A stretch of DNA of 64,000 nt from Halomonas sp. KG2. Its GTDB lineage: Bacteria; Pseudomonadota; Gammaproteobacteria; Pseudomonadales; Halomonadaceae. The translations under genes were made by a program, and so were the position numbers. The stretch covers positions 1,054,001 through 1,118,000 of the forward strand of contig CP098528.1 of the NCBI GenBank assembly GCA_030440445.1, in the 5' to 3' direction. Position 1 is the first letter of the stretch. Each line of letters begins with the position of its first letter. A model generated the notes under the pieces. That model was given only the letters and a program-made list of their open reading frames with translations. It made no database searches and was not told where the DNA came from. This document shows positions 94-45,975 of this stretch, one piece after another.

Positions 94-483
94 TTACCCC
101 TCCACCCATACCTCCTCGCCCCTAAACGCGACTTTCCAGGTACGCAGCTTGACGTCCTCATCCTCTAAGCATTGGCCATCTTCAAGGCGAAAATGCTGCT
201 TATAGAGTGGCGAGGCAACCACAGGGCTGCCTTTAACATCACCGATAATGCCGCGGGCAATGACGTTAGCGTTAGAAAACGGATCAAAGTGGTCGAGTGC
301 GTAGAGTTCTTTCTCCTGTCCTTGGGAGCGCTGCCTCGGTAAGTAGAAAATGGCCACTTGGGCTGGGCCTTCTGACGTGTTCAACCAAGCAGCGACGCCA
401 GAAAATGCCACTAGGTCAGCTTTAGCGCAGAGCGGCTGCCAGGTGTCGGTGCTCACGATGTGTTTGAGTGCGGTCGCGGTCAT
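94..483 (-). CDS. nirD: assimilatory nitrite reductase, small subunit NirD
   Basis: NirD is the small subunit of cytoplasmic NAD(P)H-dependent siroheme nitrite reductase, which reduces nitrite to ammonium. The 129-residue product is slightly longer than E. coli NirD and shows the Rieske-like beta fold signature of the family (a LYALDHFDPFSNA segment, then KGSPVVASPLYKQHFRL). The Cys/His pairs that would bind a Rieske 2Fe-2S cluster are absent, as is usual for NirD. It lies 62 bp downstream of nirB on the same strand and is the last gene of the minus-strand nitrite reductase operon. Product assignment is firm; the exact role of the subunit is family knowledge. Confidence 0.93.
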   Translation of the reverse strand: MTATALKHIVSTDTWQPLCAKADLVAFSGVAAWLNTSEGPAQVAIFYLPRQRSQGQEKELYALDHFDPFSNANVIARGIIGDVKGSPVVASPLYKQHFRLEDGQCLEDEDVKLRTWKVAFRGEEVWVEG

Positions 484-545: not shown

Positions 546-3053
546 TTAAGCGGGACGAAGCTGGCCGCGCTCGGACGTCATAATGATTGACGGGTCGGGA
601 CGCGCATCGTTGACGAAGCTACGGAAGCGTTTGAGTTTGCCTGGGTCGCTGATGGCGTTGGCCCATTCGCACTGGTAGCTATCGACAACATGCTGCATTT
701 GCCGCTCCAGCTCGCTATTAATGCCTAAGCTGTCTTCCAGAATCACCTCTTTGAGGTACTCCAGGCCGCCGTCGAGATTTTCGCGCCATACGGAGGTGCG
801 CTGCAGTCGGTCGGCGGTGCGTACATAAAACATCAAGAAGCGGTCAATGGTGCGGTAGAGCTGCTCGTCGTCCAGGTCAGTGGCGAGCAGCTCAGCGTGG
901 CGAGGGCGCATGCCACCGTTGCCGCACACGTAGAGGTTCCAGCCGTTTTCGGTGGCGATAATACCGATATCCTTGCTCTGAGCCTCGGCGCATTCCCGGG
1001 TACAGCCTGAAACACCAAACTTAATCTTGTGGGGCGCGCGCAGGCCTTTGTAGCGATTTTCCAGTTTGATGGCCATGCCGACGCTGTCCTGCACACCGTA
1101 GCGACACCACGTGCTGCCGACACAGGACTTCACCGTGCGTAGTGATTTGCCATAGGCGTGGCCGGTTTCAAATCCTGCCTCAATGAGCTCGCCCCAGATA
1201 GCGGGGAGGTCTTCTAAACGTGCGCCGAACAGATCGATGCGCTGGCCGCCGGTGACTTTGGTGTAAAGCTGGTACTTCTGGGCCACTTGCCCGAGCACGA
1301 CTAACTTATCGGGAGTGATTTCACCGCCTGCAATGCGCGGCACCACAGAGTAGGTACCGTTTTTCTGCATGTTGGCCATAAAGGTGTCGTTGGTATCCTG
1401 CAGAGGAATATGCGCCGCGTCGGTGATCGGCTCATTGAAGCAGGAGGCCAGAATAGACGCCACAGCGGGCTTGCAGATGTCGCAGCCCAGGCAGTGGGTG
1501 TCTTGATTGCTGTGTTTTGCGATCAATTCGCTGAAGGTTTTGATGCCTTCTACGCGCACAATATCGTAAAGCTCCTGGCGGGTATGGGCGAAGTGCTCGC
1601 AAATCGATTTATCGACTTCGACACCGCGGGCTTCCAGTTCGTGGTCAACCACGCTTTTGAGCAGCGCTGTGCAGCCGCCGCAGCCGGTGCTTGCTTTGGT
1701 GGCTGCTTTGACACCGCCTAGATCCACTGCGCCAGCGTCAATAGTGGCGCAAATATCGCCTTTAGTGACGTTGTGGCAAGAGCAGATGGAGGCGGTTTCC
1801 GGCAGCGCACCGGGGCCGAGAGTGGGGGCGGCGCCGCTGCTTTGGGGCAGAATCAATGAGGCAGGCTCGTCGGGTAACTCAATGCCATTGGCGTAGTACT
1901 GCAACAGCGTGTCGTAGACGCTGTTATTGCCCACCAGCATGGCGCCGAGCAGCTTTTTACCGTCGCTAGAGACCACCAGCTTGCGATACTCCTGCTTGAT
2001 CGGATCTAAGTAGCGGAACATTCGCGCGCCAGGATTTTGGTTGCCATGGGCGTCACCTATCGAGCCCACATCCACGCCCAGCAGCTTGAGCTTGGTGCTC
2101 ATATCCGCGCCGCCAAACTGGGTATCGCCACCGGTCAGCGTCGAAAACGCTGCTTTGGCCATTTGATAACCGGGGGCGACCAGACCAAAAATGCTCTGGT
2201 TCCATAGCGCCACTTCACCAATCGCCAGAATGGCCGGGTCGCTGGTGAGGCACTGGTTATCCACTACCACGCCGCCGCGCTCACCAATTTCCAGGCCGCA
2301 GTCACGGGCCAACTGGTCGCGGGGGCGAATACCTGCCGAGAACACAATCAGGTCGGTTTCCAGTACTTTGTCGTCTTGAAAAACCATGCGGTGGCGGCTC
2401 GACTTGCCATCTTCAATACGCTGAGTCGCTCGCTCGGTGAGCACCTGTACGCCTAGAGCTTCAATTTTTTCGCGCAGTAGCTCACCGCCTTCGTTATCCA
2501 CCTGCATCGGCATTAGGCGTGAGGCGAACTCCACCACGGCCGTATCCAGGTTCAACCCGCGCAGGGCATTGGCCGCTTCAAGGCCCAGCAAACCTCCGCC
2601 AACCACCACGCCGGTGGTGGCGTTTTCGGCGGCGGCCTGAATGGCGTCTAGGTCGTCCAAGGTGCGGTACACCAAACAACTATCGCGGTCGTTACCGGGA
2701 ATCGGCGGCACAAAGGGGAACGAGCCGGTAGCCAGCACCAGGCGGTCGTAAGGGTAACGGCCTTGTTCGGTGACCACCTCTTGTGAGTTGCGGTCGATCT
2801 CAATAACGGCTTCGCTTGTGCGCAGTTCAACGCCGCTGGTGGCGTAGTAATCCGCTTCGCAAAGCGCGAGCGAATCGGCATCGCGGCCGCTGAAGTATTC
2901 AGAGAGATGTACACGGTCATAAGCGCGATGGCGCTCTTCGCCAAACACGGTGACCTGATAGCGCTCAAGGGCGCCGTTATCGACGAGCTGCTCGACCAGG
3001 TGGTGGCCGACCATGCCATTACCAATAATAATAAGCTGCTGTTGGGTAGACAT
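546..3053 (-). CDS. nirB: assimilatory nitrite reductase (NAD(P)H), large subunit NirB
   Basis: The 835-residue product matches the family length (E. coli NirB about 847). In order: an FAD-binding GxGxxG segment at the N-terminus (IIIGNGMVGHHLVEQL); a NAD(P)-binding GGGLLGLEAA motif near residue 150; a BFD-type 2Fe-2S domain (CSCHNVT ... STGCGGC); a second Cys cluster (CLGCDIC); the ferredoxin-like half domain; and the siroheme/4Fe-4S motif with Cys pairs in SCVGSTWC and SGCTREC. Electrons pass from NAD(P)H through FAD and Fe-S to siroheme, where nitrite is reduced to ammonium. The ATG directly abuts the stop of the upstream FAD reductase, so the two are translationally linked. Expression should follow the shared NtrC/sigma54 promoter and NasR-type attenuator upstream at 4452-4608. 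Confidence 0.96.
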   Translation of the reverse strand: MSTQQQLIIIGNGMVGHHLVEQLVDNGALERYQVTVFGEERHRAYDRVHLSEYFSGRDADSLALCEADYYATSGVELRTSEAVIEIDRNSQEVVTEQGRYPYDRLVLATGSFPFVPPIPGNDRDSCLVYRTLDDLDAIQAAAENATTGVVVGGGLLGLEAANALRGLNLDTAVVEFASRLMPMQVDNEGGELLREKIEALGVQVLTERATQRIEDGKSSRHRMVFQDDKVLETDLIVFSAGIRPRDQLARDCGLEIGERGGVVVDNQCLTSDPAILAIGEVALWNQSIFGLVAPGYQMAKAAFSTLTGGDTQFGGADMSTKLKLLGVDVGSIGDAHGNQNPGARMFRYLDPIKQEYRKLVVSSDGKKLLGAMLVGNNSVYDTLLQYYANGIELPDEPASLILPQSSGAAPTLGPGALPETASICSCHNVTKGDICATIDAGAVDLGGVKAATKASTGCGGCTALLKSVVDHELEARGVEVDKSICEHFAHTRQELYDIVRVEGIKTFSELIAKHSNQDTHCLGCDICKPAVASILASCFNEPITDAAHIPLQDTNDTFMANMQKNGTYSVVPRIAGGEITPDKLVVLGQVAQKYQLYTKVTGGQRIDLFGARLEDLPAIWGELIEAGFETGHAYGKSLRTVKSCVGSTWCRYGVQDSVGMAIKLENRYKGLRAPHKIKFGVSGCTRECAEAQSKDIGIIATENGWNLYVCGNGGMRPRHAELLATDLDDEQLYRTIDRFLMFYVRTADRLQRTSVWRENLDGGLEYLKEVILEDSLGINSELERQMQHVVDSYQCEWANAISDPGKLKRFRSFVNDARPDPSIIMTSERGQLRPA

Positions 3054-4409
3054 TTAAGCCGCCTCCGACGTTGTAGAAGAAGAGTGTTTTGAAGAAGATT
3101 GTTTTGAAGAGAGCTCAGAAGAATCAGGACTGTGTATAGATGCCGCTTCGCGTAGCGCCTCGACATCAGCACCACCAAAGAGTAGGGCTTGGCGGTAAGC
3201 GTTGAGATCGGTGCCCGCGAGCGCCTGCTCGAAGTACCAGGGGCCTTGGCTGGTGTCGCCGTAAAGCACCGCGCCTTCTATCTGGCCGTTGCGCAGCAGC
3301 AGGCGGCGATAGTCGCCGCGCTCAAGGTCGTGGTAATTCAGTACTTCATGCTCGGCGCTGGCCTCGGTGGGGCCAAAAGCGTAGAGCGCTACACCACTGA
3401 TTTTGAGTTTGGTGGCGCTGGGGGCATCTGCGTAGCCTTGGGAATGCGTGCCGCACAGCGTCGCGGCGAGCACTTCTACCTGTCGCCAGATCGGCTCCAC
3501 TAAACCGTAGGTGGTGCCCTCGAATTGGCAGCATTCGCCCAGCGCTGAGATCGTCGGGTCGCTGGTGGTGAGCCATTCGTCCACCACAATCGCTTGATCC
3601 GTGCGCAGACCTGCCTGGCGGCCAAGTTCCGCATTAGGGGTAATGCCCGCAGCAACGATCACGCTGGAGGTGTTCAACTGGCGGCCATCGGCGAGATGCA
3701 CCTTGGTGACCCGGCCCTGGCCATCACTCTCTAGCCGCGCTAGCTGCACGCCAGTGATGATCTGTAAACCGCGCTGAGTGAGAGTGTCTTTAAGCAGGTG
3801 GGCGGCAGTTGCATCCAACTGGCGGTTCATCAGCCGCTCGCTGCGCTGGAGCACGCTTACGTTGATGCCGCTGCCGCGTTTACGTAACCCCTCAGCCGCT
3901 TCAAGACCCAGTAGGCCACCGCCAATCACCACTGCATCACCACCCTTTTGAGCAATGGCTTCTAGTGATTCGGCATCTTGCAGGTCGCGAAAGCCGTGTA
4001 CGCCCTCAAGCTCAATACCAGGAATGTCGGGCAGCGCTGGGTGCGACCCGGTGGCGATGACTAAATGATCGTAATCAAGCGATCGGCCGCTATCCGTGGT
4101 CAATGTTTGGCTTGCGCGATCAAGCGTCTCGACCTTTTCACCCAGTATCAGCGTGACGCCCTGGTCGGCGTACCACTGGGCATCGCGCAGGGAAAGTGCC
4201 TCCTGCTGCATTTCACCGGCCAGCAGTGGCGAAAGCAGAATACGGTTGTAGGCAGGGGTTGGCTCTGCACCAATCACCGTGATTCGCTGGGGGTGTGTGG
4301 GCTGTTTTACCAATGCCTCAATTAGGCGGTGGCTTGCCATACCATTGCCAATGATCACCAGATGGACGTTTTGATGATCGTTGGGCGAGCACCGGGAAGT
4401 GGTTTCCAT
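3054..4409 (-). CDS. FAD/NAD(P)-dependent oxidoreductase, probable electron-transfer subunit for nitrate reductase (NasC-like)
   Basis: This 451-residue pyridine-nucleotide-disulphide oxidoreductase resembles the N-terminal half of NirB: an FAD motif (VIIGNGMASHRLIEAL) near residue 20 and a NAD motif (VIGGGLLGLEAAEGL) in the middle. Klebsiella NasC, the NADH-dependent partner of nitrate reductase, has about this length and build, so that role is likely; it could also assist nitrite reductase. The start at 4409 is chosen because AGGAG lies just upstream and because the longer frame to 4556 would run through the attenuator hairpins. No BFD domain is visible. The C-terminus is an odd Ser/Lys-rich tail of about 20 residues. 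First gene of the operon with nirB and nirD. Confidence 0.85.
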   Translation of the reverse strand: METTSRCSPNDHQNVHLVIIGNGMASHRLIEALVKQPTHPQRITVIGAEPTPAYNRILLSPLLAGEMQQEALSLRDAQWYADQGVTLILGEKVETLDRASQTLTTDSGRSLDYDHLVIATGSHPALPDIPGIELEGVHGFRDLQDAESLEAIAQKGGDAVVIGGGLLGLEAAEGLRKRGSGINVSVLQRSERLMNRQLDATAAHLLKDTLTQRGLQIITGVQLARLESDGQGRVTKVHLADGRQLNTSSVIVAAGITPNAELGRQAGLRTDQAIVVDEWLTTSDPTISALGECCQFEGTTYGLVEPIWRQVEVLAATLCGTHSQGYADAPSATKLKISGVALYAFGPTEASAEHEVLNYHDLERGDYRRLLLRNGQIEGAVLYGDTSQGPWYFEQALAGTDLNAYRQALLFGGADVEALREAASIHSPDSSELSSKQSSSKHSSSTTSEAA

Positions 4410-4451: not shown

Positions 4452-4513
4452 AAAAAACGCCCCTGTCTCGCACCTCTTTGCAAAGCATTGCAAAAGCGTA
4501 CGTAACAGGGGCG
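4452..4513 (-). terminator. intrinsic terminator/attenuator in the leader of the nirBD operon
   Basis: Read on the minus strand, CGCCCCTGT (4513-4505) pairs perfectly with ACAGGGGCG (4466-4458), and the stem is followed by six T residues (4457-4452). It lies about 45 nt before the start codon at 4409 and downstream of a predicted sigma54 start, so it would end transcription before the operon unless prevented. Its 5' arm overlaps hairpin P2 described separately. Confidence 0.85.
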
Positions 4514-4562
4514 TCGTTGCCCGATAGCGTCTTTTTAAACGCGCGACAACCGCCATTGGCTG
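4509..4562 (-). promoter_or_regulatory. NasR-type (ANTAR) two-hairpin RNA leader of the nirBD operon
   Basis: Two hairpins are visible in the minus-strand leader. P1 (4562-4547) is CAGCC, loop AATGGC, GGTTG. P2 (4522-4509) is GGGC, loop AACGAC, GCCC. Both hexaloops have A at position 1 and G at position 4, the hallmark of RNAs bound by ANTAR antiterminators such as NasR and EutV (established knowledge). The 3' arm of P2 is part of the 5' arm of the terminator at 4505-4513, so P2 and the terminator exclude each other. NasR itself is encoded at 22262-23548. Function is inferred from structure. Confidence 0.8.
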
Positions 4563-4592
4563 CCAACTGATTAAAAACCTTACGCTGTCTGA

Positions 4593-4608
4593 AGCAAAGA
4601 GCTGGCCA
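4593..4608 (-). promoter_or_regulatory. sigma54 (-24/-12) promoter for the nirBD operon
   Basis: The minus strand reads TGGCCAGCTCTTTGCT, with GG and GC separated by the required 10 nt and a good TTGCT -12 element. The predicted start near 4582 places P1 about 20 nt into the transcript. An NtrC-like box lies about 90 bp upstream. Confidence 0.7.
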
Positions 4609-4695
4609 ACTGGCCATCTAGCATGTTTTTTTAAATAACTTCAGCTATTTAGATGTGATTGGTGGAAGGTCGGTGACACGACTCTTCGGATAGGC

Positions 4696-4712
4696 TGCAC
4701 GGTGATGGTGCG
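4696..4712. promoter_or_regulatory. NtrC-like binding site between the divergent nitrate operons
   Basis: TGCACGGTGATGGTGCG fits the NtrC dyad TGCACC-N5-GGTGCA with one mismatch in each half. It sits between the two divergent sigma54 promoters, about 90 bp from one and 130 bp from the other, a normal enhancer distance for both. Shared use is inferred. Confidence 0.6.
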
Positions 4713-4729
4713 AAAAGGGCGGTGGCGTG

Positions 4730-4762
4730 CACTCTCACACACCGTTTAGCGTGTGCAGAGTG
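4730..4762. repeat. imperfect inverted repeat in the divergent regulatory region
   Basis: CACTCTCACAC pairs with GTGTG-C-AGAGTG around a 10-nt centre, giving an 11-bp stem with one bulge. No T run follows in either direction, so it is not an obvious terminator. It may be a protein-binding dyad beside the NtrC-like box. Downstream (4783-4835) is a strongly AT-rich stretch that would suit IHF-type bending, though no convincing IHF motif was identified. Confidence 0.5.
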
Positions 4763-4841
4763 TAAAAAAGAACGTCGTGAAATGGTTTTTTATTTTTTAA
4801 GTTTTTGTTTTTAAATTATTAAATTTAGATTAATCAGTTTT

Positions 4842-4857
4842 CGGCTTGGCTTTTGCA
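4842..4857 (+). promoter_or_regulatory. sigma54 (-24/-12) promoter for the nasA operon
   Basis: CGGCTTGGCTTTTGCA has GG (4843-4844) and GC (4855-4856) at the required 10-nt spacing and a perfect TTGCA -12 element. The -24 element is CGGC rather than TGGC. Predicted transcription start is near 4868, giving a leader of about 300 nt before nasA. Confidence 0.6.
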
Positions 4858-5018
4858 GTTTCCAAGGCAATAAGTAAGTTAACAAGCAATAAGCACTCAT
4901 TGCTAGGCGATGGCAGAGAACAATTCCAAAGCTATTAGAAAAATAACGAGTCGTTAGAAAATGTGTAGCTGTTAGAGATTTGGCAGATGTAAAAGTCTGT
5001 AGTGGTAAAAACTAGTTT

Positions 5019-5055
5019 GCACCGCTGAAGGTGCGCTGTGGCAACGACGTCCAGC
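5019..5055 (+). promoter_or_regulatory. NasR-type (ANTAR) hairpins in the nasA leader
   Basis: Hairpin P1 (5019-5034) is GCACC, loop GCTGAA, GGTGC. Hairpin P2 (5035-5055) is GCTGTGGC, loop AACGAC, GTCCAGC, with one bulged T. The P2 loop is identical to that in the nirBD leader and has the A1/G4 pattern expected for ANTAR recognition. The P1 loop has G at position 4 but G rather than A at position 1, so P1 is less certain. The 3' arm of P2 (5049-5055) lies inside the 5' arm of the following terminator. Confidence 0.7.
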
Positions 5056-5112
5056 CCTCTTCTCTCAATGCGTTTATAAAGCGCATTAGAGAACGGGACT
5101 GGGCGTTTTTTT
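5048..5112 (+). terminator. intrinsic terminator/attenuator upstream of nasA
   Basis: A long stem forms between CGTCCAGCCC...TCTCTCAATGCG and CGCATTAGAGAACGGGACTGGGCG with few mismatches, followed by seven T residues (5106-5112). It ends 57 nt before the nasA start at 5169, where it would stop transcription unless P2 forms. Confidence 0.85.
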
Positions 5113-5168: not shown

Positions 5169-7922
5169 ATGCGAGGGGCAAAAGCAGGGCAGCAGTCCAC
5201 AACGACGCAGCAAGCCAAAACCACATGCCCCTACTGCGGCGTTGGCTGTGGCGTGACGGCAACTGTTGAAGCGGGCACGCTGAGCGCTGTCGAGGGCGAT
5301 CGCGAGCATCCGGCTAACTACGGGCGTCTGTGCGTCAAAGGTTCTGCGCTACATGAAACCTTGGGACAACAGGGGCGGTTGACGCACCCGCGTGTAGATG
5401 GGGTTGAAGTCTCCTGGGATACCGCCCTAAGCACCACTGCCGAACGCTTAAACATTCTGCGGGCCGAGTATGGCAACCATAGCGTGGCAGCGTATCTTTC
5501 CGGCCAGTTGTTAACTGAGGATTACTACGTTGCCAATAAGCTATTTAAAGGCTTTTTGGGCACGCCCCATTTAGATACTAACTCGCGGTTGTGTATGGCC
5601 TCGGCGGTGGTTGGTTACAAGCGCGCCTTCGGCGCGGATGCGGTGCCGTGTAACTACGAAGATTTGGAAGAGGCGGAACTGATCGTGCTGGTGGGGTCCA
5701 ACTTGGCTTGGAATCATCCGGTGCTCTATCAGCGGATTAAGGTTGCTAAAGAGCGCAATCCGCTGATGCGTTTGGTGGTGATCGACCCACGAGTCACCGA
5801 TAGCTGTGAAATAGCCGATCTCTATCTGGGGATTAAGCCAGGCAGCGATGCTTACCTGTTTAATGGCCTGCTGGCGTGGATGGCGCAGCGTCGCAAGCTC
5901 GATACCCTCTATCTTGAGCGCCACACCGAAGGGGTTGACGATGCCCTGGCGGCGGCTCAGCAAACCGCGGGCTCGGTAGCGGAGGTAGCGGCGGCTTGTG
6001 ATGTCGACCCCGAGCGCCTGGAAACCTTCTACTACTGGTTCGCCAGTCAACTGCATGTGGTCACGCTTTACTCCCAGGGCGTCAACCAGTCTTCAAGCGG
6101 TACCGATAAGTGCAACGCAATTATTAACTGCCACCTGGCTGGCGGCAAAATCGGTTTGCCGGGGGCTGGGCCGTTCTCGATTACTGGCCAGCCCAATGCC
6201 ATGGGAGGGCGCGAAGTGGGCGGGCTTGCCAACCAGTTAGCCGCGCATATGGATTACCACACCCCAGGCGCCCCGGATTTGGTCAGCCGCTTCTGGGCTA
6301 CCCACAGCCTTACACCGATCCTGCCGGAAGAGCCTGGTTATAAAGCAGTGGAGCTGTTTGAGGCCATTGAGCGTGGCGAAATAAAAGCGCTGTGGGTGAT
6401 GGCCACCAATCCCGCCATCAGCCTTCCCGATGCTGCGCGGGTGCGTGCTGCGCTGGAAAAGTGCCCGCTGGTGATTGTTTCCGAGTGCGCTGCCCATACT
6501 GACCTGCTGCCTTATGCCGATATCGTGCTGCCTGCCTCGGGGTGGTCGGAAAAAGATGGCACCGTTACTAACTCCGAGCGGCGTATTTCTCGCCAGCGGG
6601 GCATGCTGCCGCCACCAGGTGAGGCTCGTCATGACTGGTGGATTCTCTGCGAGGTGGCCAAACGCCTGGGGTTTGCTGAGGCGTTTAACTACGCGCATCC
6701 CTGGGAGATTTTCGACGAGCACGCCAAGCTCTCTGGGTTTGAAAACGGTTCGGTGCCTGATAGCCCGCAGCGGTTGTTTGATATCTCAGGCTTAATAGGG
6801 TTGGGCCGGGAGGGTTACGACGCCTTAGCACCCATTCAATGGCCGGTCACGAAAGCCACACCCCATGGCACTGCTCGGCTGTTTGAGGATGGCGAATTTG
6901 CCACCGCCAATGGTCGCGCCAAGCTGCTGGCGATCAAGCCCCAAGGGCCTGAACAGGCGCTGAGTGCCGCTTACCCGCTGCGGCTGAACACTGGCCGGAT
7001 TCGTGATCAGTGGCACACCATGACCCGCACCGCTCGTTCACCGCGGTTAATGAATCACCGTGCCGAACCCTTTATGGATGTGCATCCAGAGGATGCCCGC
7101 ACTGCCGGTGTTATGGATCAAGGGCTGGCGGTGTTAACCGCCGCGAAAGGTGAGTTTCGCGCTCGGGTGCGGGTCTCCAATGCCCAGCGCCGTGGTGAGG
7201 TCTTTGTACCCATCCACTGGACTGACTGCTTCACCCAGCAGGCCAGAAGCAGCGTGCTGATCGACAGCATTACAGATCCGCTCTCTGGGCAGCCGGAATC
7301 GAAGCACGGCGCCGTAGCGCTGGCGCCGCTTGCTACTGATTGGCAGGCCACCTTATTGGTTGCCGAAGGGGCAGCGCAATCAACACCTTGGTGCACCAGT
7401 GCCTACTGGACACGTATTCCCATGCGCGGCTGCCAGCGCTGGCAGCTTGCCAATACGCAGTCGGTTAATGACTGGCTAGCGCAGCTGAAAACGTGGCTGC
7501 CCGGCGACGTATCGGTCGTCAGCCAAGACCCCACTAACGGAAGGCTGCGCGCTGCCTGCGTGGAAAACGATCAACTGCGCTGGTGGCTGATGGTTGGCCC
7601 GCCCAACGAGTTGCCAGGGTTGGCGTGGCTGGAAGCACGTTTCAACGAGGCGGCGCTGAGCGATACCCACCGTCGCCGCCTATTAGCTGGCTGCGACGAC
7701 GGCGCCACGGATACCGGCCCGGTGGTGTGCAGCTGCCATCAAGTAGGCCAAACCACCATCGTCAATGCCATCCGTGAGGGCGATATCAGCGTAGAAGCGT
7801 TGGGCGCCAGGCTTGCCTGTGGCACCCAGTGCGGTAGCTGTATTCCCGAATTGAAATCACTTATTGAAGAGGAGCGGCCCAATGCCCGCACTAAGCAACC
7901 CCTTGCTACTGAAGTGGTTTAA
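5169..7922 (+). CDS. nasA: assimilatory nitrate reductase catalytic subunit
   Basis: This 917-residue cytoplasmic molybdoenzyme reduces nitrate to nitrite. The N-terminal 4Fe-4S site is CPYCGVGCGV plus the Cys in GRLCVKGS. The Mo-bis-MGD catalytic body follows, with blocks such as NSRLCMASAV and GQPNAMGGREVGGLANQL. The molydopterin dinucleotide-binding beta-barrel domain follows, and the C-terminus carries a BFD-type 2Fe-2S domain (CSCHQ ... CGTQCGSC), as in Klebsiella NasA. Start 5169 is chosen for the GAGGAGGTG ribosome site; the open frame continues upstream to 5031 but would cross the attenuator. It overlaps cobA by 41 bp, so they form one operon. Electrons probably come from the FAD reductase at 3054-4409. 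Confidence 0.95.
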   Translation: MRGAKAGQQSTTTQQAKTTCPYCGVGCGVTATVEAGTLSAVEGDREHPANYGRLCVKGSALHETLGQQGRLTHPRVDGVEVSWDTALSTTAERLNILRAEYGNHSVAAYLSGQLLTEDYYVANKLFKGFLGTPHLDTNSRLCMASAVVGYKRAFGADAVPCNYEDLEEAELIVLVGSNLAWNHPVLYQRIKVAKERNPLMRLVVIDPRVTDSCEIADLYLGIKPGSDAYLFNGLLAWMAQRRKLDTLYLERHTEGVDDALAAAQQTAGSVAEVAAACDVDPERLETFYYWFASQLHVVTLYSQGVNQSSSGTDKCNAIINCHLAGGKIGLPGAGPFSITGQPNAMGGREVGGLANQLAAHMDYHTPGAPDLVSRFWATHSLTPILPEEPGYKAVELFEAIERGEIKALWVMATNPAISLPDAARVRAALEKCPLVIVSECAAHTDLLPYADIVLPASGWSEKDGTVTNSERRISRQRGMLPPPGEARHDWWILCEVAKRLGFAEAFNYAHPWEIFDEHAKLSGFENGSVPDSPQRLFDISGLIGLGREGYDALAPIQWPVTKATPHGTARLFEDGEFATANGRAKLLAIKPQGPEQALSAAYPLRLNTGRIRDQWHTMTRTARSPRLMNHRAEPFMDVHPEDARTAGVMDQGLAVLTAAKGEFRARVRVSNAQRRGEVFVPIHWTDCFTQQARSSVLIDSITDPLSGQPESKHGAVALAPLATDWQATLLVAEGAAQSTPWCTSAYWTRIPMRGCQRWQLANTQSVNDWLAQLKTWLPGDVSVVSQDPTNGRLRAACVENDQLRWWLMVGPPNELPGLAWLEARFNEAALSDTHRRRLLAGCDDGATDTGPVVCSCHQVGQTTIVNAIREGDISVEALGARLACGTQCGSCIPELKSLIEEERPNARTKQPLATEVV

Positions 7923-8781
7923 CGCCGTTATGCGGTTGTCGCACCGCGCGCTAACGCCGTGGGTCCAGCAGGCTGCAGACATACGTTTGCCACTGCGTGG
8001 CGAGTGCCGCGCCGGGCAGGTTTACTTGGTCGGCGCAGGCAGCGGCGATGCAGAACTGTTAACCCTCAAGGCCGCACGCTTGCTTATGCAGGCGGACGCC
8101 GTGGTGTATGACCGTTTGGTGGGCGATGACGTGCTGGCGCTGATTCCTAACGGCAGCGAGCGCTACTACGTGGGCAAAGCCCGCGGCCATCACAGCGTAC
8201 CTCAAGCTGAGATCGGCGAGCTGATGGTCAAACTCGCCCGCGAAGGTAAATCGGTGGTGCGCTTGAAGGGCGGCGACCCGGCGGTATTTGCGCGGATGGG
8301 GGAAGAACTGGATGCCCTGGCCGCTGCCGAGATCCACGCTGCCATTGTGCCAGGGATTACCGCGGCCTCTGCCGCCGCGGCCTGCATGGGTATTCCGCTC
8401 ACTGATCGTGGCCATGCGCAGCAGCTACGCTTTGTGACTGCCCAGCTATGCCGCGAAGACGGCACCCCAGATTGGTCGTCGCTGGCGCGCAAGGATGAAA
8501 CCCTGGTGTTTTATATGGGCCTTTCAAAAGTGAGTGCAATTTGCCACGGCCTGCGCCAAGCGGGCCTGCCGGATGAGTGGCCGATCATGCTGGTGGCTAA
8601 TGCCAGTCAGCCCGAGCAGCAGTCGCTGGTGGGCTCGCTTGCGGATATGCCCGAGAGGCTCGCCGCCACACCCTTGCCATCCCCCTGCTTGATTGTGGTG
8701 GGCAGCGTCGTGCAAAGAGTCGCCACGACGCCCGCTGCCCTAGCCACCAATTTCTGCTCTGCACAGCAAACCACGCCTTAA
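7882..8781 (+). CDS. cobA: uroporphyrinogen-III C-methyltransferase (siroheme branch), first copy
   Basis: SUMT methylates uroporphyrinogen III at C2 and C7 to precorrin-2, the first step to the siroheme used by nitrite reductase. The 299-residue protein has the family signatures VYLVGAGSGDAELLTLKA, ADAVVYDRLV, VRLKGGDPAVF and the VPGITAASAAAA block. About 35 N-terminal residues precede the catalytic domain and are not part of the core. The ATG at 7882 follows AGGAG and overlaps nasA; a TTG at 7864 is possible but lacks a ribosome site. A close paralogue lies at 11493. Placement in the nitrate operon fits siroheme supply. Confidence 0.93.
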   Translation: MPALSNPLLLKWFNAVMRLSHRALTPWVQQAADIRLPLRGECRAGQVYLVGAGSGDAELLTLKAARLLMQADAVVYDRLVGDDVLALIPNGSERYYVGKARGHHSVPQAEIGELMVKLAREGKSVVRLKGGDPAVFARMGEELDALAAAEIHAAIVPGITAASAAAACMGIPLTDRGHAQQLRFVTAQLCREDGTPDWSSLARKDETLVFYMGLSKVSAICHGLRQAGLPDEWPIMLVANASQPEQQSLVGSLADMPERLAATPLPSPCLIVVGSVVQRVATTPAALATNFCSAQQTTP

Positions 8782-11492: not shown

Positions 11493-12380
11493 ATGCGTGC
11501 GCTAAGCAAACAACTAACCCGGAAATGGCTTGAGGCCTTTATGCGCCTCAGTCAGCGGGTGTTAGCGCCCTTTGGTCGCGAGTCAGCCGAGCGCTTACGC
11601 CTACCACTAAGCGGTGAGTGCCGTTCTGGAACGGTGTATTTAGTCGGTGCAGGAAGTGGAGATATGGAGCTGCTCACCCTGAAAGCGGCGCGACTGTTAA
11701 TGCAGGCTGATGCGGTGGTCTATGACCGTTTAGTGGGCGACGATGTGCTGGGGCTGATACCGCCAGGTACTGAACGCTATTACGTGGGGAAAGCAAGCGG
11801 GCATCACAGCGTGCCTCAGGATGAGATAGGTGCATTGATCGTCTCGCTTGCTCAGGCGGGTAAGTCAGTTGTACGTTTGAAAGGTGGCGACCCTGGCGTA
11901 TTTGGGCGTATGGGCGAAGAACTGGGGGCGCTAGCGAATGCCTCGATATCTGCTGAAATAGTGCCAGGTATTACCGCTGCCTCGGCGGCCGCTGCGGGGA
12001 TGGGGATTCCGCTAACAGATCGTGGCCATGCCCAGCAGCTGCGCTTTATTACGGCGCAACTGTGCCGAGAAGGCGGTACGCCGGACTGGGCAACCCTTGC
12101 CCGTCAGGATGAAACCCTAGTGTTCTATATGGGGCTTTCCAAAGTAGATGCTATCTGCCACGGCCTTCGCCAAGCGGGCCTGCCCGATACGTGGCCCATT
12201 ATGTTGGTGGCCAATGCTAGCCAGCCCGAACAGCAATCGTTGGTGGGCACGTTGGCGGATATGCCCATGCGACTCGCTGCTCAACCGTTACCCTCGCCAT
12301 GCCTGATTATGGTGGGCAGCGTGGTGAGCATGGTGGCGGAAAGTCCTGCCGCGAGCACGTTAACCACCCGTGGTGATTAA
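11493..12380 (+). CDS. cobA: uroporphyrinogen-III C-methyltransferase, second copy
   Basis: This 295-residue SUMT is a close paralogue of the gene at 7882: the two share long identical blocks (VYLVGAGSGD, MQADAVVYDRLVGDDVL, TDRGHAQQLRF, MGLSKV) and the same N-terminal extension. It makes precorrin-2 for siroheme. The start has a strong GAGAGGAG ribosome site 45 bp after the phosphatase-kinase gene, suggesting co-transcription with it. The two copies on either side of the channel and kinase genes probably reflect a local duplication; whether both are needed or one serves another tetrapyrrole branch is unknown. Confidence 0.92.
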   Translation: MRALSKQLTRKWLEAFMRLSQRVLAPFGRESAERLRLPLSGECRSGTVYLVGAGSGDMELLTLKAARLLMQADAVVYDRLVGDDVLGLIPPGTERYYVGKASGHHSVPQDEIGALIVSLAQAGKSVVRLKGGDPGVFGRMGEELGALANASISAEIVPGITAASAAAAGMGIPLTDRGHAQQLRFITAQLCREGGTPDWATLARQDETLVFYMGLSKVDAICHGLRQAGLPDTWPIMLVANASQPEQQSLVGTLADMPMRLAAQPLPSPCLIMVGSVVSMVAESPAASTLTTRGD

Positions 12381-15581: not shown

Positions 15582-17189
15582 TTAAAGAGGCAGTACCGCG
15601 CCATCGGTGCGCGGCTCGGTACCGCCTTGGAGCACACCGCTGTCAGGGTCGCGTAGAATGATTTGACCCCGGCCAAAAGTAATGGAGTCGGCGACTTTAA
15701 CGATGTGATGCCCGCGGCGGGCTAGGGCAAGTGCTAAGTGGTTGGGGAAGTCAGCTTCGACTTCAATTGTTGTGCCGTTGGTCCACTTCCAGCGCGGCAT
15801 ATCTAGTGCTGCCTGTGGGTTTAGGTGATCCTCTAGCATCGCTGTTACTACCTGCACATGACCTTGGGGCTGCATGTAGCCACCCATCACGCCGAAGGGC
15901 CCAACGGCTTGGTTATCTTTGGTGATAAAGCCGAGGATAATAGTGTGGTAAGTGCGTTTGCCGGGGGCTAACGCGTTGGGATGTTGTGGATCAAGGGAGA
16001 ATGACCAACCACGGTTTTGCAGGCTGATGCCGGTGCCAGGCACGACCATTCCAGAGCCAAAGCCTTCAAAATTGCTTTGAATAAATGACACCATATTACC
16101 GTCATCATCCGCTGTTGCTAGGTAGACGGTGCCGCCCTTTAGCGGATTGCCATGGACCGGGTTAATGGCGTCTTGGCCAATAAGACCTGCGCGTTGCGAG
16201 AGATAATCACTCGATAGCATTTGCTCAACGCTGGGTTGCATTGCGGAGCATTCAGTAATGTAGCGTAAGCCATCTACGTAACCCAGTTTTGTTGCTTCGA
16301 TACGGCGGTGAAGGGTTTCCACCGGATCTGTCGATTGGTCATCTAGTGACTCAAGAATCCCCAGCGCTTGAAGCACAATTAACCCACTGCCGTTTGGGGG
16401 GATTTCCCAAATATCATGGCCCCGATACCGGATACTGATGGGGTTGACCCATTCTGGCTTGAATGCTTGTAAATCTTCTTTGCGTAAGAAGCCGCCATGC
16501 TGACGTGAAAAGGCGTCCATCGCATCTGCTAGGCTTCCTTGATAAAACGCATCTGCGTGGCTGTTGGCAATTTCACGCAGCGTTTTTGCCATATCTGGAG
16601 AACGCCAAACATCACCCGCTTTGGGAGCCTGGCCATTGGAAGTAAAGTGCGTAAACCAGGGGATAAACTCTGCTGCTTGGTATTGACCATAGCGCTTTAC
16701 GGCGCTTTCCCATAGCTGACTCGCTACTGGAGATACAGCAAAGCCTTCTTCGGCTAATTCTATAGCTGGCGCTAACAACTGCTCAAACGGCAGTTTACCA
16801 AAACGCTCTGAAAGCGCAGCCCAAGCGCCAGGCGCACCAGGCACGGTGACCGGGACTAACCCATGGGCAGGCATTTCCTCATGGCCCAGGGCCTTGACGG
16901 CATCACATGAAATACCCTTTGGAGCAGGGCCGCTAGCATTGAGGCCATGTAGCTCACCTTTTACCCATACTAGAGCAAAGGCATCGCTACCAATACCGTT
17001 CGAGGTCGGCTCAACAACGGTTAAAGCAGCCGCTGTCGCAATGGCAGCATCAATGGCATTGCCGCCTTTTCGTAAAATATCAACACCTACCTGCGCAGCA
17101 AGCGATTGAGATGTCGCGACCATCCCGCGTTTGCCAAAGGTAACCATGCGACGTGAAGCGGAAGGGTAATAGTGTGGATCGTAGTGCAT
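15582..17189 (-). CDS. gamma-glutamyltransferase family protein
   Basis: The 535-residue Ntn-hydrolase shows the family layout: an N-terminal GKRGMVATSQSLA and GGNAIDAAIATAAAL region, then the autocleavage site, with the likely nucleophile Thr about residue 354 in GGTVYLATAD, where cleavage would make large and small subunits. GGTs hydrolyse or transfer gamma-glutamyl groups; members of this branch often act on other amides, and no signal peptide is seen, so a cytoplasmic enzyme of uncertain substrate is the safest call. It follows two ChrA-type genes by 20 bp on the same strand and is probably co-transcribed with them under the divergent GntR regulator. Confidence 0.87.
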   Translation of the reverse strand: MHYDPHYYPSASRRMVTFGKRGMVATSQSLAAQVGVDILRKGGNAIDAAIATAAALTVVEPTSNGIGSDAFALVWVKGELHGLNASGPAPKGISCDAVKALGHEEMPAHGLVPVTVPGAPGAWAALSERFGKLPFEQLLAPAIELAEEGFAVSPVASQLWESAVKRYGQYQAAEFIPWFTHFTSNGQAPKAGDVWRSPDMAKTLREIANSHADAFYQGSLADAMDAFSRQHGGFLRKEDLQAFKPEWVNPISIRYRGHDIWEIPPNGSGLIVLQALGILESLDDQSTDPVETLHRRIEATKLGYVDGLRYITECSAMQPSVEQMLSSDYLSQRAGLIGQDAINPVHGNPLKGGTVYLATADDDGNMVSFIQSNFEGFGSGMVVPGTGISLQNRGWSFSLDPQHPNALAPGKRTYHTIILGFITKDNQAVGPFGVMGGYMQPQGHVQVVTAMLEDHLNPQAALDMPRWKWTNGTTIEVEADFPNHLALALARRGHHIVKVADSITFGRGQIILRDPDSGVLQGGTEPRTDGAVLPL

Positions 17190-22261: not shown

Positions 22262-23548
22262 TCAGCTTGTGTGCGTGTTTTCGTCTTTGCGTTTGAGCAT
22301 AGATGAAAGGTCGAGTATCGACTGCGCCATATCGGCCATGCTTTTACTGTGATCCATCGAGGTTTTACGTAAAAAACGGTAAGCCTCTTCTTCGGTCATT
22401 TCCTGGTGAGCCATGATAAGGCCTTTGGCACGTTCGATGAGCTTACGTTCACGCAGGGCTTTACGGGTATTTTCCAGCTCATCGCTAAGACCTTGAAGGT
22501 GGCTCGATTGGGCATGGGCAAGCTCAATCAGTGAACGTCCTAATGGAGAGGTTAAAGCGCTAGCTGTCAGCTCTCCTAATGGTTGTGTATCGCTCAAGGC
22601 AAGAAGCTGCTCACAGGGAGCAGGAGTTGGCTGGTTAAGAGGTGTTTTAGCCTGTTCTAACGTCGCATGCACCTGAGCGATTTTTTGATGACATAACGCC
22701 GTTAATTGGTGATTTAGGGTGTCCTCAACGGCTTTGATGCTATCAATGCGTAATGTGGTTAGGTCATACCATGTTTCACTAAGCGTTTTGTCTACGCGGC
22801 CTTCTTGATGAGAGTCTTGGTAGGCATGTTGATAAGCAATATTGCGAAGCTGCTGAATCCCCGCGAGTGTTCGCGGCGAGAGAGTCTGCTGCCAAACAAG
22901 CTCAGCCTCGGATGAGGCAAACTCTTCAAAGGTGTCGAAGCAGCGCTGTTGGTCGCGTACTAATTGATTCATTAATTCGCGATGGGCGTCGTCGAAATGC
23001 CCATGGGTAAAGCCAAAGGCACCACAGGCACGTTCTTGCCCAGCGAGTTCTTTGCCTTGCATAAGGTGGAAAATAGCCACTAGTGCGCGAGTGATATCCG
23101 GGTCTACCGAGGTATCTGCTGCTTCAAATACAATGGCGAGGAGCCCACTAATTAAGTGGTTAAAGGCTTGGGTTGCCGCATCAGGAGAGATCGCAAACGA
23201 ATGAATGGCTTGTCGTAATGTGTTTAGATCATCCAGGGCAAGCCACACTGCCGCGATCCGCCTGAGTAAGCGTGCCGCTGCCTGTGGTCGTGCTTCTTCG
23301 GTAAGCGCTTCTAGCCGCTGGCGCATAACGGTCTCGGCTTCTTGGCTATGCTGTACAAATTCCTTCCGCCGAGTAGCAAACCGTTTACCTTTCGAGACAA
23401 GGTAAATCGTCGAGGCGCCTCGTTCACGTTGGAGCGCATGGATAAAACCGCTAATGTCGCCAACGATCTCTGAGGTAGTGGCTAAGTGGTGCAGGCTATC
23501 GATATCGCATCGAAGGGCGGTTAAGAGTAGCTGTTGGGCTGAAGACAT
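22262..23548 (-). CDS. nasR: nitrate-responsive transcription antiterminator NasR (NIT + ANTAR domains)
   Basis: The 428-residue protein has an N-terminal nitrate/nitrite-sensing NIT domain (about residues 20-300; GFIHALQRERGASTIYLVSK is typical and includes the ligand-binding arginine region) and a C-terminal ANTAR RNA-binding domain (about 365-415: RKLIERAKGLIMAHQEMTEE, then EAYRFLRKTSMD). In Klebsiella NasR binds hairpins in the nasF leader when nitrate or nitrite is present and prevents termination. Matching leaders occur in this window before the nirBD, nasA and narK units. The gene lies 115 bp downstream of narK on the same strand and is probably partly co-transcribed with it. Confidence 0.92.
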   Translation of the reverse strand: MSSAQQLLLTALRCDIDSLHHLATTSEIVGDISGFIHALQRERGASTIYLVSKGKRFATRRKEFVQHSQEAETVMRQRLEALTEEARPQAAARLLRRIAAVWLALDDLNTLRQAIHSFAISPDAATQAFNHLISGLLAIVFEAADTSVDPDITRALVAIFHLMQGKELAGQERACGAFGFTHGHFDDAHRELMNQLVRDQQRCFDTFEEFASSEAELVWQQTLSPRTLAGIQQLRNIAYQHAYQDSHQEGRVDKTLSETWYDLTTLRIDSIKAVEDTLNHQLTALCHQKIAQVHATLEQAKTPLNQPTPAPCEQLLALSDTQPLGELTASALTSPLGRSLIELAHAQSSHLQGLSDELENTRKALRERKLIERAKGLIMAHQEMTEEEAYRFLRKTSMDHSKSMADMAQSILDLSSMLKRKDENTHTS

Positions 23549-44844: not shown

Positions 44845-45975
44845 TCAGGTGTTTTGCATCAAATAATCGTAGGCACTTTTGATGCGCTGAAAACGCGTTG
44901 ATGCCAGTGCTATTTGATGTTCACTACCCGAATAGAAACGGTCAGGGTGGTGCAACTGCGCCATGCGGCGATAGGCACGGCGAATATCGGCACGATTAGC
45001 CCCTGGTGTTAGTCCTAATACTGCCAGCGCCCGTGTGTTGCGATCGGGTGGTGAAGAGGGGCGCTCCCGCTGTTGGCGACGGGCTTCTTCCTGACGCTTC
45101 TGCTCTTGTTGCCAGCGCTGACGCTCTTGCTGTTGGGTCTGTTCTTGTCGTTTGCGGCGCTCTTGTTGTTTGTCCTGTTCCCGCTTGTTCTGTTCCCGCT
45201 TGGCCTGCTGCTGTTTTGCCTTCTCACGGTGTGCTTCTTCCTGTTGGCGTTGTTTATTCTGCTGCTTTTGTTGCTTTTGTTGCTTTTGTTGCTTTTGTTG
45301 CTTTTGTTGCTTTTGTTGCTTTTGTTGCTTTTGTTGCTTTTGTTGCTTTTGTTGCTGTTGTTCTTTATTAGCACGCTGGCGCTCTTCGGCCTCTTTTGCT
45401 TTCTGCTCAGCCGCGTGTGCATCACGTGCCTTGCGCGCGTGATATTCTGGATCGTGCACCTGCCAGTAAGCATCTCGACTGGGGTCCTCTGCTGATTGCA
45501 GTGGTTTGCCCGTTAACTCATGAAAGAGAGTGCTGAATGTGGCAGGTGTGATATTTAGCAAATCAGCGAGAAAGCCCAGAATGTAATGGTTATTCAGAGA
45601 TAGCTCGCCATCGTCGGTGGCTACCGTGATCGCTTGGTAAAGTATGCTGAGACTGCGCTCGTTGGAACACTCTTTGCGCACAACCTCGGCCGCTAACTGA
45701 ATGGCTTGAAGGTCTTGACTATGGGCAATGCTCATCACCGGCCCAAGTTCATGCCCGTGACGAAATTGCGCGGTGACCTGAGCCAGTCGGCGTCGCCGCT
45801 GGCCTTCAGACACCTGCTGGCGATGGACAAGCACCCAGGCTAACAGTAGTAGTGTTGCCGTATCCACTTGGCTGCGGCTCTTTAGCAGCAACAGCTCAAA
45901 GGGTGAAAAACGGGCAATGGACATTCCTTGGCTCCAAGGCAAAGAGGTTAACCGCAGAAGTGCTTTAACGGCCAT
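44845..45975 (-). CDS. TerB-like/DnaJ-domain protein (DjlA-like) with Lys-Gln repeat
   Basis: The 376-residue protein has an N-terminal helical region (residues about 20-170) resembling the TerB/DjlA module (LAWVLVHRQQVSEGQRRRRL), a long low-complexity linker of Gln, Lys, Arg and Glu containing ten KQQ repeats, and a C-terminal J domain with intact HHPDRF. It should stimulate a DnaK-type chaperone; unlike DjlA no clear N-terminal membrane anchor is visible. The 9-bp DNA repeat (45264-45353) encodes the KQQ tract, so length changes stay in frame. Confidence 0.82.
   Translation of the reverse strand: MAVKALLRLTSLPWSQGMSIARFSPFELLLLKSRSQVDTATLLLLAWVLVHRQQVSEGQRRRRLAQVTAQFRHGHELGPVMSIAHSQDLQAIQLAAEVVRKECSNERSLSILYQAITVATDDGELSLNNHYILGFLADLLNITPATFSTLFHELTGKPLQSAEDPSRDAYWQVHDPEYHARKARDAHAAEQKAKEAEERQRANKEQQQQKQQKQQKQQKQQKQQKQQKQQKQQKQQKQQNKQRQQEEAHREKAKQQQAKREQNKREQDKQQERRKRQEQTQQQERQRWQQEQKRQEEARRQQRERPSSPPDRNTRALAVLGLTPGANRADIRRAYRRMAQLHHPDRFYSGSEHQIALASTRFQRIKSAYDYLMQNT
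45264..45353. repeat. 9-bp tandem repeat, ten perfect copies
   Basis: The unit GCTTTTGTT repeats ten times without change inside the DjlA-like gene; the minus strand encodes Lys-Gln-Gln. A near copy (GCTGTTGTT) follows. Such an array is prone to length change by slippage without frameshift. Confidence 0.95.

Follow-up and report, generated by a model that had tools for sequence, protein, structure and literature searches.

The 64,000-nucleotide stretch analyzed here (the window; Halomonas sp. KG2, contig CP098528.1, positions 1,054,001 to 1,118,000) carries a nitrate-assimilation locus in which a gap of 759 bp parts an oxidoreductase-nirB-nirD gene set on the minus strand from nasA on the plus strand, with two outward-running leaders inside the gap. 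The same window encodes NasR, in which an N-terminal NIT and a C-terminal ANTAR domain are both present by profile match. What is new here is a conserved asymmetry between the two leaders, the general arrangement being already known: judged by sequence, nirBD has a canonical ANTAR target with two hexaloops and a mostly folded linker, whereas the nasA leader, set beside it under one regulator, is a candidate natural single-hexaloop antiterminator. The parts lie on both strands exactly where a preliminary description of this DNA had placed them and are listed below, where P1 and P2 are the first and second hairpins of a leader and A1/G4 denotes A and G at positions 1 and 4 of a hexaloop. The linker hairpin was called from folding, the other leader parts from sequence and folding.

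4545..4564, minus strand: nirBD leader P1, 7-bp stem, hexaloop AATGGC (loop 4557-4552; A1, G4)
4527..4542, minus strand: nirBD leader hairpin in the P1-P2 linker
4509..4522, minus strand: nirBD leader P2 (antiterminator), GGGC-AACGAC-GCCC, loop 4518-4513
4452..4513, minus strand: nirBD leader intrinsic terminator, 9-bp core, arms 4513-4505 and 4466-4458, T-run 4457-4452
5019..5034, plus strand: nasA leader P1, stem GCACC/GGTGC, loop GCTGAA (5024-5029), A1 rule broken
5035..5055, plus strand: nasA leader P2 (antiterminator), GCUG(U)GGC-AACGAC-GUCCAGC, loop 5043-5048, bulged T at 5039
5048..5112, plus strand: nasA leader intrinsic terminator, core arms 5048-5054 and 5099-5105, T-run 5106-5112
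22262..23548, minus strand: nasR, NIT and ANTAR protein (PF08376, 1.6e-48; PF03861, 2.8e-20)
3054..4409, minus strand: FAD/NAD(P) oxidoreductase, first gene of the nirBD operon (Pyr_redox_2, 7.1e-57; in-frame ATG)
546..3053, minus strand: nirB, nitrite reductase large subunit (Pyr_redox_2, NIR_SIR and related domains)
94..483, minus strand: nirD, nitrite reductase small subunit (Rieske_2, 5.3e-32)
5169..7922, plus strand: nasA, assimilatory nitrate reductase (Molybdopterin, 5.6e-74; C-terminal Fer2_BFD)

A Conserved Asymmetry between the Two Leaders

Coordinates and folds bear out the earlier claim that each leader has a hairpin with loop AACGAC whose 3' arm lies inside the 5' arm of the terminator, and in both the final base of the P2 loop is already part of the terminator arm; that P2 and the terminator share an arm supports the view that termination and antitermination exclude each other. 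The nirBD P1 loop AATGGC was also read correctly, as was the A1/G4 rule in every hairpin except the nasA P1, whose loop is of the G1/G4 type.

Of 25 genomes in the window's genus, 21 have both nasA and an ANTAR match and the other four have neither; the divergent nirBD/nasA arrangement and both leaders are kept in all 21 genomes with nasA, our own included. Throughout these 21 genomes the P2 hairpins of both leaders are A1/G4 hexaloops with the 3' arm within the terminator 5' arm. Loop bases A1, A2, and G4 of P2 are invariant on both sides despite lying outside the terminator arms, and C3 of the nasA P2 is likewise kept in 21/21. The nirBD P1 is an A1/G4 hexaloop in 21/21 genomes, the A, A, and G at positions 1, 2, and 4 of the loop never varying; we use this count, which becomes 17/21 under a stricter stem rule.

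The nasA P1 departs from this pattern. Its stem is formed at the four counted pairs in 100% of cells of the 21-genome alignment, and its loop is of the A1/G4 type in a single genome and of other types in the remaining 20, the window among them. In 11 genomes, again including the window, the loop is a hexaloop with G4 but without A1; in three it is a hexaloop without G4, and in six it has another length (3, 5, or 8 nt), so that loops range from 3 to 8 nt, lengths that depend on the pairing adopted by our script (G121 and G148 score 3-nt loops as an extra pair closes). A scan reaching up to 100 nt from P2 for a canonical P1 farther upstream in the nasA leader returned 2/21, namely G140 with a true A1/G4 loop and G129 with a shifted hairpin overlapping the usual P1; because the 2/21 that the stricter-stem scan gives for this genus includes the G129 shift, we use 1/21. 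The two leaders differ also in the distance between hairpins. The nasA P1 stands 0-1 nt before P2, whereas the nirBD linker spans 15-39 nt (counted with a 7-bp P1 and a 4-bp P2) and contains a hairpin of six pairs, the outer five formed in 15 to 20 of the 21 genomes and the sixth in 5/21.

Since P1 loop and linker differ in a conserved way, the claim that the same switch stands on both sides of the intergenic region is not supported. Within this genus the loop of the nasA P1 has thus been free to vary, unlike the P1 stem and the P2 loop. We regard the nasA leader as a candidate single-hexaloop antiterminator because its P1 breaks the A1/G4 loop rule; for Klebsiella NasR, both the stem of P1 and bases A1 and G4 of its loop are reported as essential (PMC3369936; here and below, statements from cited papers refer to the parts of them available to us). 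Having retained the stem of P1 but not its loop rule, this leader probably relies on P2 by itself, or on a P1 that acts without its loop being read.

Distribution among Relatives

The wider family sample comprised 151 genomes including our own, with nasA matched at E 1e-100 in 109 and ANTAR matched in 106; the regions upstream of nasA were covered for 105 of 108 relatives (G056, G131, and G137, with partial or split nasA matches, were left out). Family counts come from a looser scan rule, as an earlier scan demanding clear T-runs missed leaders. Among ANTAR-matched genomes with divergent loci the switch was found on the nirBD side in 61/63 and on the nasA side in 48/63, and at non-divergent nasA loci in 32/37. 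Genomes with nasA but without an ANTAR match had the switch in 0/6 cases on either side. Because other sampled nasA-bearing members of the genera concerned, g15 and g19, have ANTAR matches, we infer at least two joint losses of the ANTAR gene and the leaders.

A canonical P1 stands within 10 nt of the nasA P2 in genera g11 (5/5), g12 (3/3), and g23 (1/1), that is, in 9/9 of the leaders with a P2 found. NasR genomes of g4 (6/8) and g15 (2/3) have an A1/G4 nasA P1 that lies 52-72 nt from P2 and is not adjacent to it, and in g20 an A1/G4 P1 was present within 100 nt upstream in only 4 of 19 nasA leaders with P2. The idea that a missing P1 loop rule marks NasR as opposed to NasT control was considered and rejected, because g20, whose members are mostly NasT-like, and the NasR genomes of g4 and g15 do not fit it. 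The family members that we label NasT-like (ANTAR without a NIT match) have similar P2 loops. Separately, some genomes of g12 (G012, G035, G049, G060, and G071) and of g20 (G063, G119, and G133) have, beside a NIT-ANTAR protein, a shorter ANTAR protein of the NasT-like kind (our own labels); there, one set of leaders may serve two nitrate sensors.

Folding, Covariation, and Chance

At minimum free energy both full-length leaders fold into the terminator, with z-scores of -5.1 (nirBD) and -6.4 (nasA) and 0/200 shuffles as good. Leaders cut before the terminator 3' arm fold into P1 and P2, the nirBD leader adding a third hairpin between them.

In the 21-genome alignment the nirBD P1, linker, and P2 stems are paired in 89.4% of cells, against 86.8 +/- 0.6 in shuffles (0/500 as high), and two-sided changes that keep pairing occur at 2/7 P1, 2/6 linker, and 0/4 P2 pairs, or 4/17 altogether. 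The nirBD terminator is paired in 100% of cells and 4/9 of its pairs changed on both sides, a count equalled by 0/500 shuffles. On the nasA side (20 distinct rows for P1 and P2) pairing is likewise 100% in P1 and P2, with 2/11 pairs changed on both sides, and 100% in the terminator, with 0/7. When partners were slid by 1 to 3 columns, pairing fell to 61% or less in each of the four stem sets. The nirBD P2 varies in its outermost pair only and thus says little on structure, and the shuffle control does not remove relatedness among the genomes. The covariation in relatives on which the preliminary description had staked its structures is therefore found in part, in the nirBD P1, linker, and terminator and in the nasA P1 and P2 set, and is absent from the nirBD P2 and the nasA terminator; taken together, the aligned sequences lend these structures moderate support.

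A strict scanner, designed after the sites were known and requiring a hexaloop C-A..G..-G on a stem of 3 bp or more whose 3' arm overlaps a terminator with a T-run, returned three sites in the 64-kb window: both leaders and one at 16227 that is antisense within a coding open reading frame (ORF) and looks like chance. No sites were found on 20 first-order Markov windows of 64 kb, and 2000 simulated intergenic regions held a mean of 0.0015 sites, none holding two.

NasR and the Search for Further Targets

The NasR of the window, which the preliminary description had correctly identified, aligns over residues 11-417 of 428 with PDB 4akk, "nitrate regulatory protein" (E 1.2e-49), which we take to be Klebsiella oxytoca NasR. 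It is the sole ANTAR match in the 4.57-Mb genome at E 0.001. A Halomonas NasR is already in print (PMC8014003).

A model of the whole nirBD leader (R1) was tried as a genome-wide probe and rejected, as it matched mainly terminator sequence elsewhere in the genome; it was replaced by a model of P2 plus terminator (R2), trained on 12 nirBD and 11 nasA leaders from 12 genomes of the genus, both window leaders included. R2 scored the two leaders, which are thus part of its training set, at 60.9 and 60.2 bits and gave no convincing third NasR target in the genome among 20 further matches up to E 10, with 150 of 1535 first-look candidates scored. The best of these others were an echo of the nirBD leader on its antisense strand (26.0 bits) and a terminator with a loop lacking G4 (23.3 bits), and the other 18 reached at most 18.5 bits; the alignments of three of the weaker matches were inspected. 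Across the family R2 recovered both leaders in 20 of the 21 genomes of the genus with nasA at E 2e-5 or better, and in G148 the nasA leader only, a recovery made partly on training genomes (12 of the 21). In addition, the strict scan of the window showed no leader of this type at the MFS transporter gene adjoining nasR, and Rfam gave 0 matches at gathering score in the window.

In one relative (G087, genus g4; L142:1380-1790) a separate leader belongs to the MFS transporter gene that follows nasR; it shows AATGGC and AACGGC hexaloops (by eye) along with a terminator and is a third ANTAR-type leader. Weak R2 matches (E 0.008-0.03) lie at similar places near nasR in six more g4 and two g8 genomes.

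Promoters and Neighboring Genes

Patterns resembling two promoters and one regulatory site lie between the leaders; they were called with what we take to be the sigma54 consensus for the promoters and the NtrC consensus for the site.

4594..4609, minus strand: sigma54-type promoter of the nirBD operon, TTGGC-N7-TTGC
4843..4857, plus strand: sigma54-type promoter of nasA, GG-N8-TTGC (GG-N10-GC)
4697..4711, plus strand: NtrC-like site between the promoters, GCAC-N5-TGGTGC

The nirBD-side box (TGGC-N7-TTGC) and the nasA-side box (GG-N8-TTGC) each occur in 21/21 genomes of the genus with nasA, with the TGGC and TTGC columns of the former and the GG and TTGC columns of the latter invariant in the alignment, so that a GG-N10-GC core with conserved spacing is present on both sides. 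The sigma54-type promoters previously proposed for both operons thus hold up as predictions, within the presumed consensus. The NtrC-like pattern is exact within the gap in 16/21 genomes and its TGGTGC half is present in 20/21, again relative to the assumed consensus.

Downstream of nasA lie two cobA-like genes (named by eye), a formate/nitrite transporter gene, and a PP2C-kinase fusion. The cobA-like pair (7864-8781 and 11493-12380) is mutually similar and flanks the nitrite transporter and the PP2C-kinase fusion. Elsewhere in the window, an ORF at 44845-45975 has a long KQQ-repeat run and a J-domain-like C-terminus (by eye).

Proposed Mechanism and Alternative Readings

In the mechanism that we propose, each divergent operon would start at its sigma54 promoter, with the NtrC-like site between them as the presumptive nitrogen-limitation input, and by default each transcript would halt at the intrinsic terminator of its leader. 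Once its NIT domain has taken up nitrate or nitrite, NasR would bind the P2 hexaloop through its ANTAR domain and keep P2 folded; because the P2 3' arm is the terminator 5' arm, the terminator would then be unable to form and RNA polymerase would read through. The anatomy of the leaders, their conservation, the single ANTAR match in the genome, and the concurrent absence of ANTAR match and leaders from some relatives are observed directly, and argue with high confidence for NasR-type ANTAR antitermination at both leaders; binding, the response to nitrate, and the use of sigma54 and NtrC are what we infer beyond them.

Several results weigh against this interpretation. The nasA P1 violates the rule reported as essential for Klebsiella NasR. 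The antiterminator form is unremarkable against shuffles in both leaders (nirBD z -1.06, 24/200 as good; nasA z -1.82, 10/200). Covariation is modest and, as noted, missing from the nirBD P2 and the nasA terminator: the two-sided count for the nirBD P1, linker, and P2 is equalled by 21/500 shuffles and the pair-type count by 89/500, each of the corresponding nasA P1 and P2 counts is equalled by 23/500, and of the two covarying nasA pairs one comes from a single genome and one resembles a single clade change. R1, built from nirBD leaders alone, failed to recover the nasA leader at E 10, and a third site could have escaped, as 150 of 1798 (R1) and 150 of 1535 (R2) first-look candidates were scored. 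The six nasA genomes lacking an ANTAR match are confined to two genera (four in g15 and two in g19), and the looser rule misses 15/63 nasA-side and 2/63 nirBD-side leaders at divergent loci and 5/37 at non-divergent ones while matching 17/318 shuffled regions. The NtrC-like pattern is inexact in 5/21 genomes.

For the nasA leader itself a bolder reading, possible in our judgment though short of even odds, is that NasR acts on P2 alone, the P1 stem being structural and its loop unread, and that, together with the canonical nirBD leader, this could set an order of expression, nirBD before nasA. If NasR binds the nasA leader more weakly, nitrite reductase could come on while NasR-nitrate is still low, nitrate reductase following at higher levels only; this order, an idea of our own, is the weaker half of the reading. 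Klebsiella NasR is described as binding P2 alone at ~12 uM vs ~1 uM for P1P2 (PMC7496416). EutV showed no significant difference in affinity for P1, P2, or both (PMC8934654), which by analogy would speak against expecting a large affinity difference between the two leaders.

Somewhat less probable, in our judgment, is that NasR still reads the nasA P1, position 1 being tolerant and G4 decisive, so that both leaders are ordinary dual-hexaloop targets. The 11 genomes with a G4-not-A1 hexaloop, and one more with both bases, speak for this, and in the study of the EutV-RNA structure G4 is emphasized as the obligatory base that flips out (PMC8934654); however, 9/21 genomes lack a G4 hexaloop altogether (three hexaloops without G4 and six loops of 3, 5, or 8 nt) with the stem still paired, and the low g20 count (4/19 A1/G4 P1s) points the same way. 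We consider it unlikely that the nasA leader has lost NasR control, with a terminator that merely attenuates and nirBD alone regulated by nitrate: a relic would not be expected to keep the P2 stem and loop bases A1, A2, C3, and G4, outside the terminator arms, in 21/21 genomes, and the nasA-side switch is absent from all six family genomes without an ANTAR match. Very improbable is that GCACC...GGTGC is a DNA site of the NtrC type rather than an RNA stem; it resembles by eye the GCAC...GTGC halves of the NtrC-like element, but the spacing of the halves varies by several bases among genomes, whereas a protein that binds DNA as a dimer would presumably require a constant distance, and G069 and G148 alter both sides yet keep pairing. 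That two ordinary terminators merely happen to follow hexaloop hairpins can be practically dismissed, since against the in-ORF match of the strict scanner and the shuffled-region matches of the looser rule stand the rarity of sites in simulated intergenic regions, the presence of both leaders in 21/21 genomes, and their joint absence with ANTAR.

Comparison with Known Systems

The logic of the circuit, NtrC/sigma54 plus ANTAR antitermination, is already known. A review covers sigma54/NtrC and ANTAR antitermination of nirBD (PMC12830290), NasR antitermination is described for Klebsiella nasF (PMC3369936, PMC7496416), and as early as 2012 ANTAR sites had been predicted ahead of genes for nitrite reductase and for nitrate/nitrite transporters (PMC3369931); to have called this circuit unusually complete was therefore an overstatement. 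A literature search from which subscription papers were largely out of reach yielded no description of these two leaders.

The use of two hairpins by ANTAR proteins is disputed. A 2012 model has the ANTAR dimer bind P1 and P2 simultaneously (PMC3369936), whereas a 2022 study of the EutV-RNA complex states that the dimer cannot bind both hairpins, casts P1 as a recruitment hairpin, regards a single hexaloop as the minimal target, and raises the question of how important such single-hexaloop sites are (PMC8934654). The present locus sets a canonical leader beside one without the P1 loop rule under one regulator, and since this pairing occurs in 20/21 sampled genomes of the genus with nasA, our own included, natural sequences are at hand for putting the question to the test. 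It is this conserved difference between the leaders that merits bench work; were the proposed order true, nitrite build-up would be limited by making nitrite reductase before nitrate reductase.

Klebsiella NasR/nasF resembles the present system in its NIT-ANTAR one-component regulator and in a P1 and P2 hexaloop leader with a terminator before nitrate-assimilation genes; it differs in having one leader before one operon, where two stand back to back here, and in that the P1-loop A1/G4 is reported as essential there and is broken in the nasA P1 here. NasT and its nirBD leader NalA (Pseudomonas putida, according to the cited title) share the sigma54/NtrC start and the ANTAR antitermination of nirBD, but the sensor there is NasS-NasT and not a NIT domain. 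The dual-hexaloop RNA of EutV/eutP likewise has A1/G4 hexaloops and a P2 3' arm inside the terminator (PMC3369931, PMC8934654), and EutV antitermination is abolished by a linker 20 nt longer (PMC8934654). Unlike that RNA, the nirBD leaders here have their 15-39 nt linkers, mostly with a hairpin, and the nasA leaders a linker of 0-1 nt and a P1 loop that is non-canonical in 20/21 genomes; by analogy with the minimal EutV target, the nasA leader would fit a single-hexaloop target.
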